Shown here in pieces: positions 34,921 through 44,568 of a DNA stretch of 52,977 bases. Where the stretch lies: positions 1 to 52,977 of the forward strand of contig JAPPII010000120.1 of the NCBI GenBank assembly GCA_028820845.1, given 5' to 3'. Numbering within the stretch: position 1 is the first letter of the stretch; every line of letters starts with the position of its first letter. A program made the translations under genes and the position numbers. The DNA comes from Candidatus Poribacteria bacterium (GTDB lineage: Bacteria; Poribacteria; WGA-4E; WGA-3G). The notes under the pieces were generated by a model. That model was not told the DNA's origin, searched no databases, and saw nothing but the letters and a program-made list of their open reading frames with translations.

Positions 34921-34949
34921 TTGATAATTTATTTCGCTTATAGTATAAT
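34921..34949 (+). promoter_or_regulatory. Promoter for the large Cys-cluster protein
   Basis: TTGATA (34921-34926) and TATAAT (34944-34949) with 17 bases between. About 190 bases of leader precede ATG 35138. Confidence 0.6.
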
Positions 34950-35137
34950 GATTTCAATGGCGCGATGGTACCCGTGTCATTCAAAACAACGAACCCCAGA
35001 AGAGGGAAACTGCGAGATCTTTCTCCCGCGAACGCTCACAACCTACGTCAACTTCGCAATTTTCACACGCCGCTCTCAAGTCATTTTCAAGGTTCGTAAA
35101 AACTCGATAACGTATGTTCTCTATGGAGATGTCTGCC

Positions 35138-38100
35138 ATGGAATCTGTGAAGGATATTATCCAACAGTGTCACGAACGGCGACGAAAGGATCTACAACAG
35201 CGGGAGACGATTGTCTCACCCACCTTGCACGATGAATATCCTTACCACTATCTCGTTTATTGTGCGCATCGGTATCCCTTGCTTTTGCATGCGCTTGAAC
35301 AGGCAGATATCTCGTTCATGCCGATTGGACAGGCACCCTTCGATCGGGGTCCAGTGTATCGTGGTGGCACGCGTCTCTTAAGACGACAAGGCATACTCAA
35401 CTGGGAGCCGAGACGATGGTTTTCGTCGTGGGGGATTCAGGTCTATACAGGAACGCCATCTGCACGCGACGGGGCAAATTGGCACGACATCGAGTTCACC
35501 TACAAGGCGATCCGAGACGCGCAGGATGCCGTTGGCGCATGTCTCGACGCACTCGTCAACGCTGTTATGAATCCGCTCCTCACCTTACTTAAAGATGGCG
35601 GCTTGCGGTTTTCGTGTCGAATCCCAGACTATCTTCATCCAAATACTATAAATACGAGGCAGTATGTTCACAAGCACCGACCTGGTTTAAATCCGCCTCG
35701 CGATCGAGATGTCTACGTACGGGTTGTTGGAAATAAAGGCTACACGCGTTGGGATGCCCGCTACGAGATTCTTAGGGGCAGCCTATTAGACCCGCCTATC
35801 ATCTCTAAAGACGTGCTTTTTGCGTTTCTTGAGGTCTTACGAGAACAGCTCCATGAATCCGCCCCGGCATCGGAATTAGACACGATAGATGAAACGACCA
35901 AGGATACACAGGATTTTGACGATTTCGATTGTATAGAATCGTTAGAAACAGAGTCGTTCGTAAATGAAAGTATCCTTGCAGTGCGACGCGGTGAGCTGGC
36001 TCCGATTGGGATTAAACGACCGAGACCGCTCCTTGAGAAAGCGAAACACACTGCAGTAGCGGATGAGAAAAATCTCTCTGAAACGGAAGCTCGCATTCTT
36101 GGAATTATCACGGGTGCAATGAGCACGGAAAAGAAATGTGAAATCGAAGCCACGTTTCTTGATACCGCACCTATATGGATCAACGCGAATACCGCACACG
36201 ATGCTGAAGACGCAGAGCGGTATTATGAAGCGCAGGACGTTTCAGTAGGACGTTGGAAACCGCGAAACCATCGTTGGGAACAGGCGAAATGGATGTCGAT
36301 TGCTGAACGAATGAAGAACCCTTTCGCGCGGGGAAACGTCTGCGAAGATGCAGAGAGATGCGATGCCTTAGAACAGAAAGGCGGTGATCCGAACAAAAGT
36401 ATCTGCCCGAGTTGCTCGGTTTATGACGCGTGTCAAGCGCGTGGGTATCTTTCTCAATTCAAGGCACTCAAAAAGAAACAGGTCATTGTATCAGAGATTC
36501 CGAATCTCTTTTTGGACCGGCGGTACGCGGCGTTTGTTGACGCGCTGATTGTTCCCAGTAGGGTCTGTATTATAAATGATTCTGAATCCCAGCTCACGCA
36601 ACTCTTTTCAGAACATCGTCTCTCAAGCGAAATTCTTGAAGGTTGGCTCATTAATTGGAGCGGCGCGGCGTTAGGTCAATTCGCGAAAACAGTCCTGAAC
36701 GCTATTCGGATTACAGACAGTCAGCATGGTGATATCGCTAAGCGGATTCGCACGGTTATTCAGGCATTTGAAGGGTTAGAAGATAGCATTGTTCAGCAGC
36801 TGCATCAGGTAAATTGTACAGATAAAGAGAGTAGCAGGGCTGCCATGGATATGGATAGTGCGATCCAACTTGAGGTTTTGGATATATCGACCTCAGAGAA
36901 CATAGAGAAACTCCCAAATGTATATCGCGACCCAGAGTGGACGTTATGGCATCAATTGAAGACATTTTTTGCGTATTACACCCGCGATGTGGATGCTCCG
37001 ATGTTTGTCGATGATGGGATTCTGCGGTTCTGGTTACCATCAAAAATTCATCAAGAGATTCAGCACCTTGTGTTCATATCACCAGCGTTTTCGGAAGATT
37101 GTTTCAAAGAAGTCTTTCCTGAAGAGACTGTCTCGGTGAGACAGGCTGAATCGCAGGAGACATCGCTTTCAGGCAATAAGGCTTTTCAGCTGCGGAGCGC
37201 ACCGCATATCTCCCATGCAATCGCAAACTACGAGGTTAATTGGGACGTGTTTAGTCTTTCTAAAATTGCAAATCGCTTTTTTACCGGTATCTATCAAGAA
37301 ACGAAGCGGCATCCGGATCGTAAGCATGTTGTTATTTCGAGCACAAGCGCAAAGATAATGTTGAAAAATGTTCTTGATAATATTATCAACTATCACGATC
37401 TCATCAAAGACACCCCAGCACACGCTGAGGAGTTGCGAACCGCTTTTGAAACTACTGACGTTTACTACGACCGCATCAAAGGTCTACAATCTATCTTTGA
37501 AGCTGCTGATGTTGTCTGGATCGTCGGTACGCCCTATTGGCAACCGAAATTTGTCTGGGAACAAGCGAAAGTTCTGTTTGGAAACCGAGTGGAGCCGTTA
37601 AATTATAATTTGACGATGAACCCCTATCAATTTGAAGATGAACGGATACAGGGACTCTACGAACAAAACGCCATCGGCTCGCTGACACAGATGATTCGTA
37701 TTGCTGGATTCAACGAGTCATCAGACAAAACACTGGTTCTCAACACAGCTTTACGTATACCCTTTGTTACCGATGCACCAGAGACAGAATTATTTGATTG
37801 GGAAGACTTTGAAATCGCTGGTGGGTTGGATGAACTTTCAAAGACGATTCGGATACGTGAGGATTACGAGGCAGAATACGCGAACATGGATGCATCGTGG
37901 GATCGAAAACGCGTTGAGTATCTGCTCGGTGTTTCTAAGTCGCAAGCGAACCGGATCTTGACGAGATTGAGGGGGAGTAAACTCGAGCGTATCCCATTTC
38001 ATGTCCAGATCCTCGATCTGCTCTCAGATGGAGAGAAAACAACATCTGAAATCGTTGAAGCAATTCAGGGGAATCCGGGTGCCATTAAAAACGAACTCAC

Positions 38101-38161
38101 CCATCTTGTAGAAACAGGCGAGATTGTCAGGATCCGACGCGGTGTTTATGCATTGGCATAG
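35138..38161 (+). CDS. Large Cys-cluster, helicase-like protein with winged-helix C-terminus
   Basis: 1007 residues, no close family recognised. About 45-250: a compact domain with WGIQVYTGTPSARDGANWHDIEF and GLRFSCRIPDYLHP, possibly primase- or nuclease-like. Residues 402-432 hold five cysteines spaced C-x5-C-x14-C-x2-C-x5-C, suited to zinc or Fe-S. About 770-880: segments resembling the second half of an SF2 helicase (VVWIVGTPYW; GSLTQMIRIAGFNESSDKTLVLNT in motif V/VI position). The end (about 925-1007) is a winged helix (ILDLLSDGEKTTSEIVEAI to RRGVYAL). No Walker A GKT is visible, so ATPase activity is doubtful. ATG 35138 has GGAG 9 bases upstream. A role in DNA replication, repair or defence is inference. 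Confidence 0.7.
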   Translation: MESVKDIIQQCHERRRKDLQQRETIVSPTLHDEYPYHYLVYCAHRYPLLLHALEQADISFMPIGQAPFDRGPVYRGGTRLLRRQGILNWEPRRWFSSWGIQVYTGTPSARDGANWHDIEFTYKAIRDAQDAVGACLDALVNAVMNPLLTLLKDGGLRFSCRIPDYLHPNTINTRQYVHKHRPGLNPPRDRDVYVRVVGNKGYTRWDARYEILRGSLLDPPIISKDVLFAFLEVLREQLHESAPASELDTIDETTKDTQDFDDFDCIESLETESFVNESILAVRRGELAPIGIKRPRPLLEKAKHTAVADEKNLSETEARILGIITGAMSTEKKCEIEATFLDTAPIWINANTAHDAEDAERYYEAQDVSVGRWKPRNHRWEQAKWMSIAERMKNPFARGNVCEDAERCDALEQKGGDPNKSICPSCSVYDACQARGYLSQFKALKKKQVIVSEIPNLFLDRRYAAFVDALIVPSRVCIINDSESQLTQLFSEHRLSSEILEGWLINWSGAALGQFAKTVLNAIRITDSQHGDIAKRIRTVIQAFEGLEDSIVQQLHQVNCTDKESSRAAMDMDSAIQLEVLDISTSENIEKLPNVYRDPEWTLWHQLKTFFAYYTRDVDAPMFVDDGILRFWLPSKIHQEIQHLVFISPAFSEDCFKEVFPEETVSVRQAESQETSLSGNKAFQLRSAPHISHAIANYEVNWDVFSLSKIANRFFTGIYQETKRHPDRKHVVISSTSAKIMLKNVLDNIINYHDLIKDTPAHAEELRTAFETTDVYYDRIKGLQSIFEAADVVWIVGTPYWQPKFVWEQAKVLFGNRVEPLNYNLTMNPYQFEDERIQGLYEQNAIGSLTQMIRIAGFNESSDKTLVLNTALRIPFVTDAPETELFDWEDFEIAGGLDELSKTIRIREDYEAEYANMDASWDRKRVEYLLGVSKSQANRILTRLRGSKLERIPFHVQILDLLSDGEKTTSEIVEAIQGNPGAIKNELTHLVETGEIVRIRRGVYALA

Positions 38162-38244: not shown

Positions 38245-38273
38245 TTGCAAAACTGAATTAATTTGTGTATAAT
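38245..38273 (+). promoter_or_regulatory. Orphan promoter before direct repeats
   Basis: TTGCAA (38245-38250) and TATAAT (38268-38273), 17 bases apart. No open frame follows for over 600 bases, so the transcript, if made, would be non-coding through the repeats and the hairpin at 38430-38464. Confidence 0.5.
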
Positions 38274-38289
38274 ACTATTAGTATGACTA

Positions 38290-38411
38290 AAATCCATTCA
38301 TACATTATACGTCATTATGATTTCAGTCATACAGAATTCAAACTGAAATCCATTCATAATTTATAATTTATACTCAGACATCATCATGATTTCAGTTATA
38401 TAGAATTCAAA
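38290..38411. repeat. Two AT-rich iteron-like direct repeats
   Basis: AAATCCATTCATA occurs at 38290-38302 and 38346-38358. ATGATTTCAGT-ATA-AGAATTCAAA occurs at 38317-38342 and 38386-38411 with two differences. Within unit 1, TGACTAAAATC and GATTTCAGTCA are imperfect inverted partners. Confidence 0.75.
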
Positions 38412-38514
38412 AGAAAATTTCGGTAGAGCGCAGAGAGGATAATCTTAGCAGGCTTCCTCTCTGCTGCTCACCGACTCCTTCTTCAAGTCCCTCCGGTTGA
38501 AGGTTAAGTCCTAC

Positions 38515-40249: not shown

Positions 40250-41341
40250 TTAAGTTGGACACAGGTTGATAGCAGCATTTAGGTCTCTGTCGCATTCAAA
40301 GCTACATTCAGAGCAGTGATAGGTGCGTTCTGAGAGCGTCAAATCTGCTTTCTTGTGTCCGCAATGGCTACATGTTTTGGAACTCGCAAAGAATTGCGGT
40401 GCTTCGGTTATCGGTATACCACGCCTATCCGCTTTATACTTGAGTTTCGTTAGGAAACCCCCAAGTGCTGAATCCGATAGTGCCTTTGTGAGTTTACGGT
40501 TTTTGAGCATATTGGTAATCTTAAGCGTTTCAATACCGATGGCACTTGCCTTACGGACAATCCGTATTGTCGCTTGGTGGTGAGCGTCCTCACGGATATT
40601 CGCGATACGTGCGTGAACAGCAGAAAGCACATCTTTCGCTTTATACCAGTTCTGACTACCTTTTTGTCGACGAGAGAGTCTACGGTTCGCACGTGCCACC
40701 TTTCGCTCATATCGTTTCAGTGGGCGTGGATTCTCATAAGTTGTGCCGTCTGAACAGGTAGCAAGCGTATTGATACCCACGTCAACACCTATCGGTTGTC
40801 TATCGTCAAACAAAAGGGCTTGGTGATTATAGTTATTGCTATCCAAGTTCCTGACGGTAATAGCCACAAACCACTTGTTGTTATGTTTTGACACAACAAC
40901 TTTCGTGATTTCACCAGTCCACTGGAGTTCCTCACGTATGCGTATCCAACCGATTTTAGGGAGATTGATACGCTTTTTGTAGACTTCAACAGTTCCGAGT
41001 CCATTATCTGCTTGGTAAGAGCATTTACCAGATCGGTGCTTATAGACGGGAAACTTGTTTTGTCCTTTTTTCCAACGCGCGACAGCGTCTCCAAGATTGT
41101 GTATCGCATTCTTGGAGGCATTCTGTGAGAGTGCTTTACACCAGTCAAACTTCTTATATTTGATGGCATTGAATTCACGCTTTAGGTCAATATAACTTCG
41201 CCATTCGTCTGTATCCAAGCCTACTTTGAAGGACGATAAAGCGAAGTTATACGCAACACGAGCATAACCTGCATGCTGTGCCATAAGCGTCGACTGCTTA
41301 TTATTCGGGTTGAGTGCTATCTTCTGTGTTCGTAAACTCAT
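40250..41341 (-). CDS. tnpB: IS200/IS605-type TnpB RNA-guided nuclease
   Basis: 363 residues. The N-terminus MSLRTQKIALNPNNKQSTLMAQHAGYARVAYNFAL is typical. The RuvC residues appear as GVDVGINTLA (D), GIETLKI (E) and DRDLNAAINL (D). A zinc ribbon lies between the last two (CSHCGHKKADLTLSERTYHCSECSF). All catalytic residues are present, so the protein may be active as an RNA-guided endonuclease that keeps the element in place. No tnpA transposase is adjacent, so it is a TnpB-only element dependent on a partner elsewhere. A strong promoter is at 41437-41466, and a left-end hairpin near 41391-41405. Confidence 0.92.
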   Translation of the reverse strand: MSLRTQKIALNPNNKQSTLMAQHAGYARVAYNFALSSFKVGLDTDEWRSYIDLKREFNAIKYKKFDWCKALSQNASKNAIHNLGDAVARWKKGQNKFPVYKHRSGKCSYQADNGLGTVEVYKKRINLPKIGWIRIREELQWTGEITKVVVSKHNNKWFVAITVRNLDSNNYNHQALLFDDRQPIGVDVGINTLATCSDGTTYENPRPLKRYERKVARANRRLSRRQKGSQNWYKAKDVLSAVHARIANIREDAHHQATIRIVRKASAIGIETLKITNMLKNRKLTKALSDSALGGFLTKLKYKADRRGIPITEAPQFFASSKTCSHCGHKKADLTLSERTYHCSECSFECDRDLNAAINLCPT

Positions 41342-43529: not shown

Positions 43530-44393
43530 ATGATATGGATCAAGGAAGTCTGGGTTATTTTGGGCGGACTTGGTGGACTCGCGGCAATTATCCTCCTCCT
43601 GATGGAATGCCTCGATAGATGGAATCATCGTTGGAATCGGCGTATACTTTATACAATCGGCATTGGGATTACTTGGGAACGTGCTATTGATCCGGAATTA
43701 ACCCTCCGTCTCTATGCAAAAAAAATAAAACGATTCGGGTACAATGCAATAAATTATGCTGACTTTCCAAGTGGTGCTGAATTATTAGCTGGCAGTTCAA
43801 TAGCCATAGCTGAAGATGGGTTGAAAGTCGACTGGTGGACACGGGACATGGATTGGTTTGATGAGTGGCCCCCTGAAGAACCGGAGATGCTTTATCAAAT
43901 CCCATGGGGTGCTAATACTTTTAAAGAACTGTTAGAGCGATCCAACCGCGATTGGTCTTCTATGAACACGGAAAACCAAGTAGAGATTCGAGGTTGGAAT
44001 AAATGGAGTCAACGCAGAATCTATACGCTCACTATTGGTATAGCAAAGTTAGCTCCTGGTGTTGATCCAATGCTTAACTTTTGTCTTTATTCACAAAACA
44101 TTAAACGATTTGGTCGTGATTCAATTGATTACAGAAAATATTCAGAGTACGCAGAACTATTGGCTGTTACGAAGGTATTACCTGCTAGAGACGGTCTCAA
44201 AATCCATTGGGCGACACGGGATCGATACCTAAAATATCATAATAATTGGCCTCCAAAAATATATAATATTCTATATCAGGTTCCCTGGAGTGCTAATACT
44301 TTCAAAGAACTGCTAAAGCAATATTTACGTGAAAATAAAGTCTTTTTTAACGATAAAGGTAAAATAGATAGCCGTAGACGTAATAAAACCTAA
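43530..44393 (+). CDS. Membrane-anchored protein with a duplicated unknown domain
   Basis: 287 residues. One N-terminal helix (VWVILGGLGGLAAIILLLMECL) is followed by two copies of a roughly 100-residue domain (38-137 and 163-264). Each copy runs RRI-Y-xTIGI, then DPxLxxxLYxxxIKRFG, AELLA, DGLKxxWxTRD, WPP, LYQxPWxANTFKELL. The second half of each copy is best conserved. The tail is basic (GKIDSRRRNKT). No known family was recognised. The helix, with few charges before it, suggests anchoring with the domains on one side of the membrane. It is alone between a pseudogene and a promoter-bearing gap; no ribosome-binding site is obvious beyond AAGGATG. Confidence 0.8.
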   Translation: MIWIKEVWVILGGLGGLAAIILLLMECLDRWNHRWNRRILYTIGIGITWERAIDPELTLRLYAKKIKRFGYNAINYADFPSGAELLAGSSIAIAEDGLKVDWWTRDMDWFDEWPPEEPEMLYQIPWGANTFKELLERSNRDWSSMNTENQVEIRGWNKWSQRRIYTLTIGIAKLAPGVDPMLNFCLYSQNIKRFGRDSIDYRKYSEYAELLAVTKVLPARDGLKIHWATRDRYLKYHNNWPPKIYNILYQVPWSANTFKELLKQYLRENKVFFNDKGKIDSRRRNKT

Positions 44394-44529: not shown

Positions 44530-44568
44530 AAAACCCCAAGTAAGACATATCGGATGCGGAGGTCTCCC

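Follow-up and report, generated by a model that had tools for sequence, protein, structure and literature searches.

A predicted ATPase-dead primase-helicase-like protein of Poribacteria and the small-RNA-like element beside its gene

The window, the whole stretch of 52,977 nucleotides that was analysed (Candidatus Poribacteria bacterium, GCA_028820845.1, contig JAPPII010000120.1), contains a gene for a 1007-residue protein, followed by an RNA-like element that is inherited with it. The protein is predicted to combine an XPD/DinG-type core, which has lost its ATPase motifs, with a probable primase-polymerase-like domain and a winged helix. The pair is tentatively read as a two-gene cassette of protein and small RNA built on an ATPase-dead primase-helicase; that the two products are coupled is plausible, short of being probable. 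Poribacteria are a sponge-associated candidate phylum, of which to our knowledge no member has been cultured.

The open frame spans positions 35114-38161, in which the ATG at 35138 is favoured as the start, because it is preceded by a GGAG at 35125-35128 and is common to the orthologues. A frame of 1007 residues at 35138-38161 with its own promoter had been described in an earlier annotation made from the DNA letters (the sequence-only reading); the start is backed by these two features and the promoter by a -10 region that is conserved in the orthologues. Residue numbers are counted from 35114, unless the numbering of the sequence-only reading (counted from 35138) is stated. A structured 5' leader of the protein gene was sought by folding and none was found (z +1.4). 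The features of the protein gene are as follows:

34921-34949, + strand: promoter of sigma-70 type for the protein gene, TTGATA-17-TATAAT, recognised from the sequence; the orthologues keep its -10 region and spacing
34950-35137, + strand: 5' leader of ~190 nt, alignable across the orthologues, containing the GGAG
35138-38161, + strand: protein gene of 1007 codons, with an AEP-like domain, a degenerate XPD/DinG-type core and a winged helix
35195-35863, + strand: probable N-terminal AEP/primase-polymerase-like domain (residues 28-250) with D125-x-E127, GG-L-R165 and D214; profile test not significant
36110-36139, + strand: position of helicase motif I (Walker A), degenerate TGAMSTEKKC; AETGAGKS/T in some relatives
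36341-36433, + strand: Cys cluster C410, C416, C431, C434, C440, predicted Fe-S domain
36563-36586, + strand: position of helicase motif II, degenerate VCIINDSE; LCIIDEAQ in some relatives
36914-37888, + strand: second RecA-like domain with VVWIVGTPYW and QMIRIAGFNE
37991-38158, + strand: C-terminal winged helix

The core of the protein is, in its predicted structure, an SF2 fold of the XPD/DinG type. AlphaFold with the family alignment gave a pLDDT of 77 for the window protein, and the same value was obtained for a relative with an intact AETGAGKT; Foldseek placed both with XPD and DinG. For the window protein, the best PDB matches were Thermoplasma XPD (E 4e-11) and DinG (9e-11), then TFIIH XPD subunits and CasDinG, and all of the top 28 were XPD, DinG, CasDinG or TFIIH chains. 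In XPD and DinG, the Fe-S domain sits between motifs I and II. The four invariant cysteines of the family fall between the motif I position (residues 333-342) and the motif II position (484-491), and the cluster is predicted to bind an Fe-S cofactor. With the Fe-S helicases of the XPD/Rad3 and DinG type, including CasDinG, the window protein shares the core fold, the two RecA-like lobes and the Cys cluster between the motif I and II positions, whereas motifs I and II themselves are missing, the identity is ~10%, and an N-terminal domain and a winged helix are additional. The Helicase_C_2 profile (PF13307) found no match in the window protein, ordinary Helicase_C_2 proteins are encoded elsewhere in the same genome, and a profile comparison with DinG was not significant.

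In an alignment of 30 family sequences, C410, C431, C434 and C440 are invariant, as are W123, H124, D125, R165, F166, R169, H175, W213 and D214, while WHDIEF and GLRFSCRIPDYLHP are strongly conserved. Searches of Pfam, NCBIfam, PHROGs, PADLOC and PDB sequences returned nothing besides the winged helix, which is matched weakly by the Pfam families AbiEi_4 (E 6e-5) and HTH_5 (4e-4), both just below the curated cut-offs. The sequence-only reading had listed five clustered cysteines (402-432 in its own numbering), a WHDIEF/GLRFSCRIPDYLHP domain, VVWIVGTPYW and QMIRIAGFNE at helicase-like positions, the absence of Walker A and a winged helix at the C-terminus, all of which were found again: the five cysteines are C410, C416, C431, C434 and C440, the two segments belong to the second RecA-like lobe of the XPD-like fold, and the stretch equivalent to Walker A reads TGAMSTEKKC. 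Two of the checks that it had proposed, a fold search and a profile search with the whole protein, gave the XPD/DinG fold and, from the curated libraries, the winged helix alone. Its proposal of an inactive or divergent helicase/primase-type protein is supported by this fold, by the Cys site, by the loss of motifs I and II and by viral primase-polymerase matches.

The N-terminal domain is probably AEP (primase-polymerase)-like. A search of viral predicted structures with the window protein returned several primase-polymerases, among them R9ZWI1, a stand-alone protein of 331 residues that was matched over 275 columns with a probability of 1.00. As there is no helicase region in a primase-polymerase of this stand-alone kind, the alignment most likely falls on the N-terminal domain. 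On the other side, no primase-polymerase was among the top PDB Foldseek matches, neither Prim-Pol (PF09250) nor AEP-TOTE (PF22548) gave a Pfam match in the window protein, and hhalign comparisons with these two families scored above control slices without reaching significance (best probability 3%). When the AEP catalytic motifs DxD/E, (S)xH and hD were compared, D125/E127 and D214 could be placed in the window protein, and the His is replaced by R165 throughout. D125 and D214 are nearly invariant across the family sequences; residue 127, the second acidic position of motif A, is variable family-wide, with E127 present in the orthologue group of the window protein.

Mobile elements are known to carry AEP domains that are fused to various helicases, SF2 helicases among them, and to winged helices; XPD or DinG partners are not mentioned in the survey that describes them (PMC5862659). 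The order of an AEP-like domain, a helicase-like core and a winged helix is shared with the PrimPol-PV1 supergroup (PMC5862659) and with TOTE-type AEPs (PF22548). The window protein differs from these primase-helicase fusions by its lack of a PF09250 or PF22548 match, by its dead motor and by the linked small RNA.

The loss of the motor could be followed across 80 distinct family sequences. GK[ST] at motif I is found in 11 of them, DE at motif II in 18 and both in seven, so homologues with an intact GKT, whose existence the sequence-only reading had left to be checked, do exist. The four cysteines are kept in 62 of the 80, and some sequences have lost the entire Fe-S/motor region; members of ~780-800 aa (at L086 7800-10190, L089 and L091) are without the whole motif I/Fe-S region, whereas their N-terminal domain and C-terminal part are still present. 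In the orthologues of the window protein, motif I is of the TEKK/TEKR type and motif II of the IND type, and Walker A is lost in all, for which reason the core probably no longer translocates.

Judged by its substitution rates, this motor-less protein is under purifying selection and not a pseudogene. The frames of the orthologues are intact, and dN/dS against the window gene is ~0.15-0.2 overall, over dS values of 0.4-1. Apart from the linker, each domain falls in this range, the motor-dead lobe too; the Cys cluster is lower still (0.04-0.13 in the four comparisons listed), and the winged helix is also low. The strong selection acting on an ATPase-dead protein had been missed by the sequence-only reading. 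That the gene is a decaying relic of an expanded selfish family, without present function, is very improbable: most members have lost motifs I/II, some have lost domains, and copy number varies, with tandem arrays, but the selection test disfavours a relic.

The orthologue group of the window copy is single-copy; its members, with 74-83% identity, lie between the divergent argG and the gene at 44554, which encodes a Vgb-lyase-like beta-propeller (sub-threshold Pfam match), in many genomes of the genus. In the genomes G012, G022 and G035, argG and the Vgb-lyase-like gene are neighbours at a distance of ~70-230 bases and the site is empty; G022 carries a 60%-identical version at another locus (L098). 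On the argG tree the occupancy of the site is patchy, for example G000 is occupied and its sister G012 empty. A single insertion followed by plain inheritance was therefore rejected, and repeated loss or exchange is needed. From the occupied and empty sites and the copy elsewhere in G022, it follows that gene and promoter together are open to loss, gain or exchange. Between the protein gene and the gene at 44554, the window contains an IS605 OrfB/TnpB-type gene (40250-41341, - strand; PF01385, PF07282). Direct repeats of 81 and 38 nt (~72% alike, spacing ~380) were also observed at 43809-44322, where they form an internal duplication in an ORF without Pfam match (43530-44393).

In the 3' flank of the orthologues, a conserved block runs from a T-run via TTGCAA and TATAAT (17-nt spacing) to a GC-rich hairpin with pyrimidine/U-rich sequence, and 3' of this terminator-like hairpin the conservation stops. 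The following features were assigned:

38245-38273, + strand: promoter of the RNA element, TTGCAA-17-TATAAT
38280-38484, + strand: predicted small-RNA gene of ~205 nt; z -7.2, found only beside orthologues, no Rfam family
38283-38330, + strand: hairpin 1 (ATGACTAAAATC ... GATTTCAGTCAT)
38335-38407, + strand: hairpin 2; absent in L042, L044, L046 and L019
38413-38484, + strand: GC-rich 3' hairpin, then a pyrimidine/U-rich tract; intrinsic-terminator-like

The element folds strongly, with z -7.2 for the window copy and z -5.6 and -6.9 for single-hairpin versions. For the 3' hairpin, 90% of the cells are paired, compared with at most 56% when slid; both partners have changed in five of its pairs, and nearly all shuffles fall below it. 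For hairpin 1 the paired share is 91% of the cells, compared with at most 41% when slid, and covariation is missing because its stem hardly varies; a DNA role may apply to this hairpin. By profile search, the element is present beside every orthologue with enough 3' sequence, including L098 at its other locus, where the match is weak and in the right place (E 1e-5). In this G022 copy the promoter and hairpin 1 are kept, together with a 3' hairpin of divergent sequence; in its middle part (L098 5270-5420, - strand), short tandem units ATATCATACTT replace hairpin 2. The profile search found the element beside no paralogue, and a DNA search of 37 genomes found none away from the protein gene. A search of Rfam with 38280-38484 gave no family. 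The region had been called iteron-like before: the imperfect repeats at 38286-38418 are real, but they correspond to the paired arms and the loops of hairpins in a conserved RNA-like element and not to classical iterons. That this neighbour is more plausibly a small-RNA gene passed on together with the protein gene had been missed by the sequence-only reading.

The chief rival explanation, which we regard as rather unlikely, is a domesticated replication initiator derived from the primase-helicase of a mobile element, with the downstream element as a DNA site that is still bound, such as an origin or single-strand initiation site with AT-rich sequence and hairpins. Among the replication proteins of mobile elements, fusions of AEP and helicase that carry winged helices are typical (PMC5862659), gene and element occur together at two different loci with the argG site empty in relatives, and the element starts AT-rich and has in hairpin 1 a nearly invariant stem, like a protein-binding palindrome. 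However, the -35/-10 spacing of 17 nt is conserved, in L098 too, and the 3' hairpin has compensatory and G-U changes and is followed by U-rich sequence, both of which fit a transcription unit; no integrase or replication genes adjoin, and phages, plasmids and viral contigs gave no match. Promoter spacing and the covarying 3' hairpin argue for an RNA over a DNA element; hairpin 1 would fit either.

Ranked third is a DNA-binding regulator, in which a degenerate primase-helicase has become a transcription factor of the winged-helix type, and the RNA would be a regulatory small RNA of no relation to it or just a termination module downstream. This is unlikely: the motor-dead lobe and the Fe-S cluster, needless for a simple regulator, show the same degree of constraint as the winged helix in the orthologue group, and an antisense match of the RNA to the start of the protein's own mRNA was no better than shuffles, even though the winged helix is the sole Pfam-recognised part and has a low dN/dS, several paralogues have deleted the whole Fe-S/motor region with N and C parts kept, and the gene sits between divergent genes.

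For the preferred cassette of protein and small RNA, a working model can be given. The dead XPD-type core would be an Fe-S-stabilised nucleic-acid clamp that positions the N-terminal AEP-like domain, the winged helix would add binding, and any remaining chemistry would be carried by the AEP-like domain. The small RNA (38280-38484), if transcribed, would bind the protein as a cofactor, that is as scaffold, template or guide, and the resulting ribonucleoprotein may sense or synthesise nucleic acid. That the locus is such a ribonucleoprotein system, in which an ATPase-dead Fe-S XPD-type core, a primase-polymerase and a dedicated small RNA (template, guide or scaffold) form a movable Poribacteria cassette, is possible, though doubtful. 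The protein family does not need the RNA in general, because paralogues show no homologous RNA.

In phage defence, ncRNA-dependent reverse transcriptases and a fusion of reverse transcriptase and primase-polymerase are known (PMC13213688). With DRT2/3/9, which have an ncRNA, and the DRT7 fusion (PMC13213688), the window locus shares a single protein of the nucleic-acid-synthesis type beside a structured ncRNA, an analogy limited to how such a system might work, as the window protein has no reverse transcriptase domain and its neighbourhood is no defence island. In a literature search that lay outside most subscription papers, no motor-dead XPD-type AEP fusion with a linked RNA was found described, and searches on Poribacteria gave nothing relevant; within that scope, the suggested protein-RNA pair has not been described so far. 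A selected, motor-dead XPD/DinG member fused to a primase-like domain would show the use of a helicase fold once motion stops, and, should the RNA function together with it, the pair would stand as a primase-type equivalent of reverse transcriptase-ncRNA systems. The cassette is testable, since it comprises only ~3.6 kb with its own promoters.

The sequence-only reading had regarded the gene as standing alone; it had missed that the gene is one member of a large Poribacteria family. All named loci of family members are in Poribacteria records. Matches were found in 50 of 85 Poribacteria genomes, all but one weak match within one taxonomic family; the scan sought close relatives, so distant relatives could be spread more widely. 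Further copies are located on three contigs of the same genome, and G022 and G029 carry at least 11 distinct genes each, some in tandem arrays. The family overall is a sizeable unexplained expansion in Poribacteria. Phage and plasmid collections and viral contigs were searched for relatives and none were found. A transposon or insertion sequence was rejected, as the DNA similarity between copies stops at about the coding region, with no common flanks or ends. Likewise, the neighbourhood survey, also proposed by the sequence-only reading, found mixed paralogue neighbours and no consistent island, and a defence island was rejected. The neighbours include sulfatases, mandelate-racemase-like enzymes, M61 peptidases, ArgJ, some SNF2 helicases and IS605/TnpB. 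A SNF2-type domain was observed in four of the scanned paralogue neighbours, and in L090 and L061 the paralogues are convergent and nearly adjacent to a SNF2-type helicase of ~600 aa. In L052, with a similar layout in L050, L055 and L062, a paralogue group is located upstream of several M61 peptidase genes, one of which encodes a fusion of sigma-70 and M61 peptidase.
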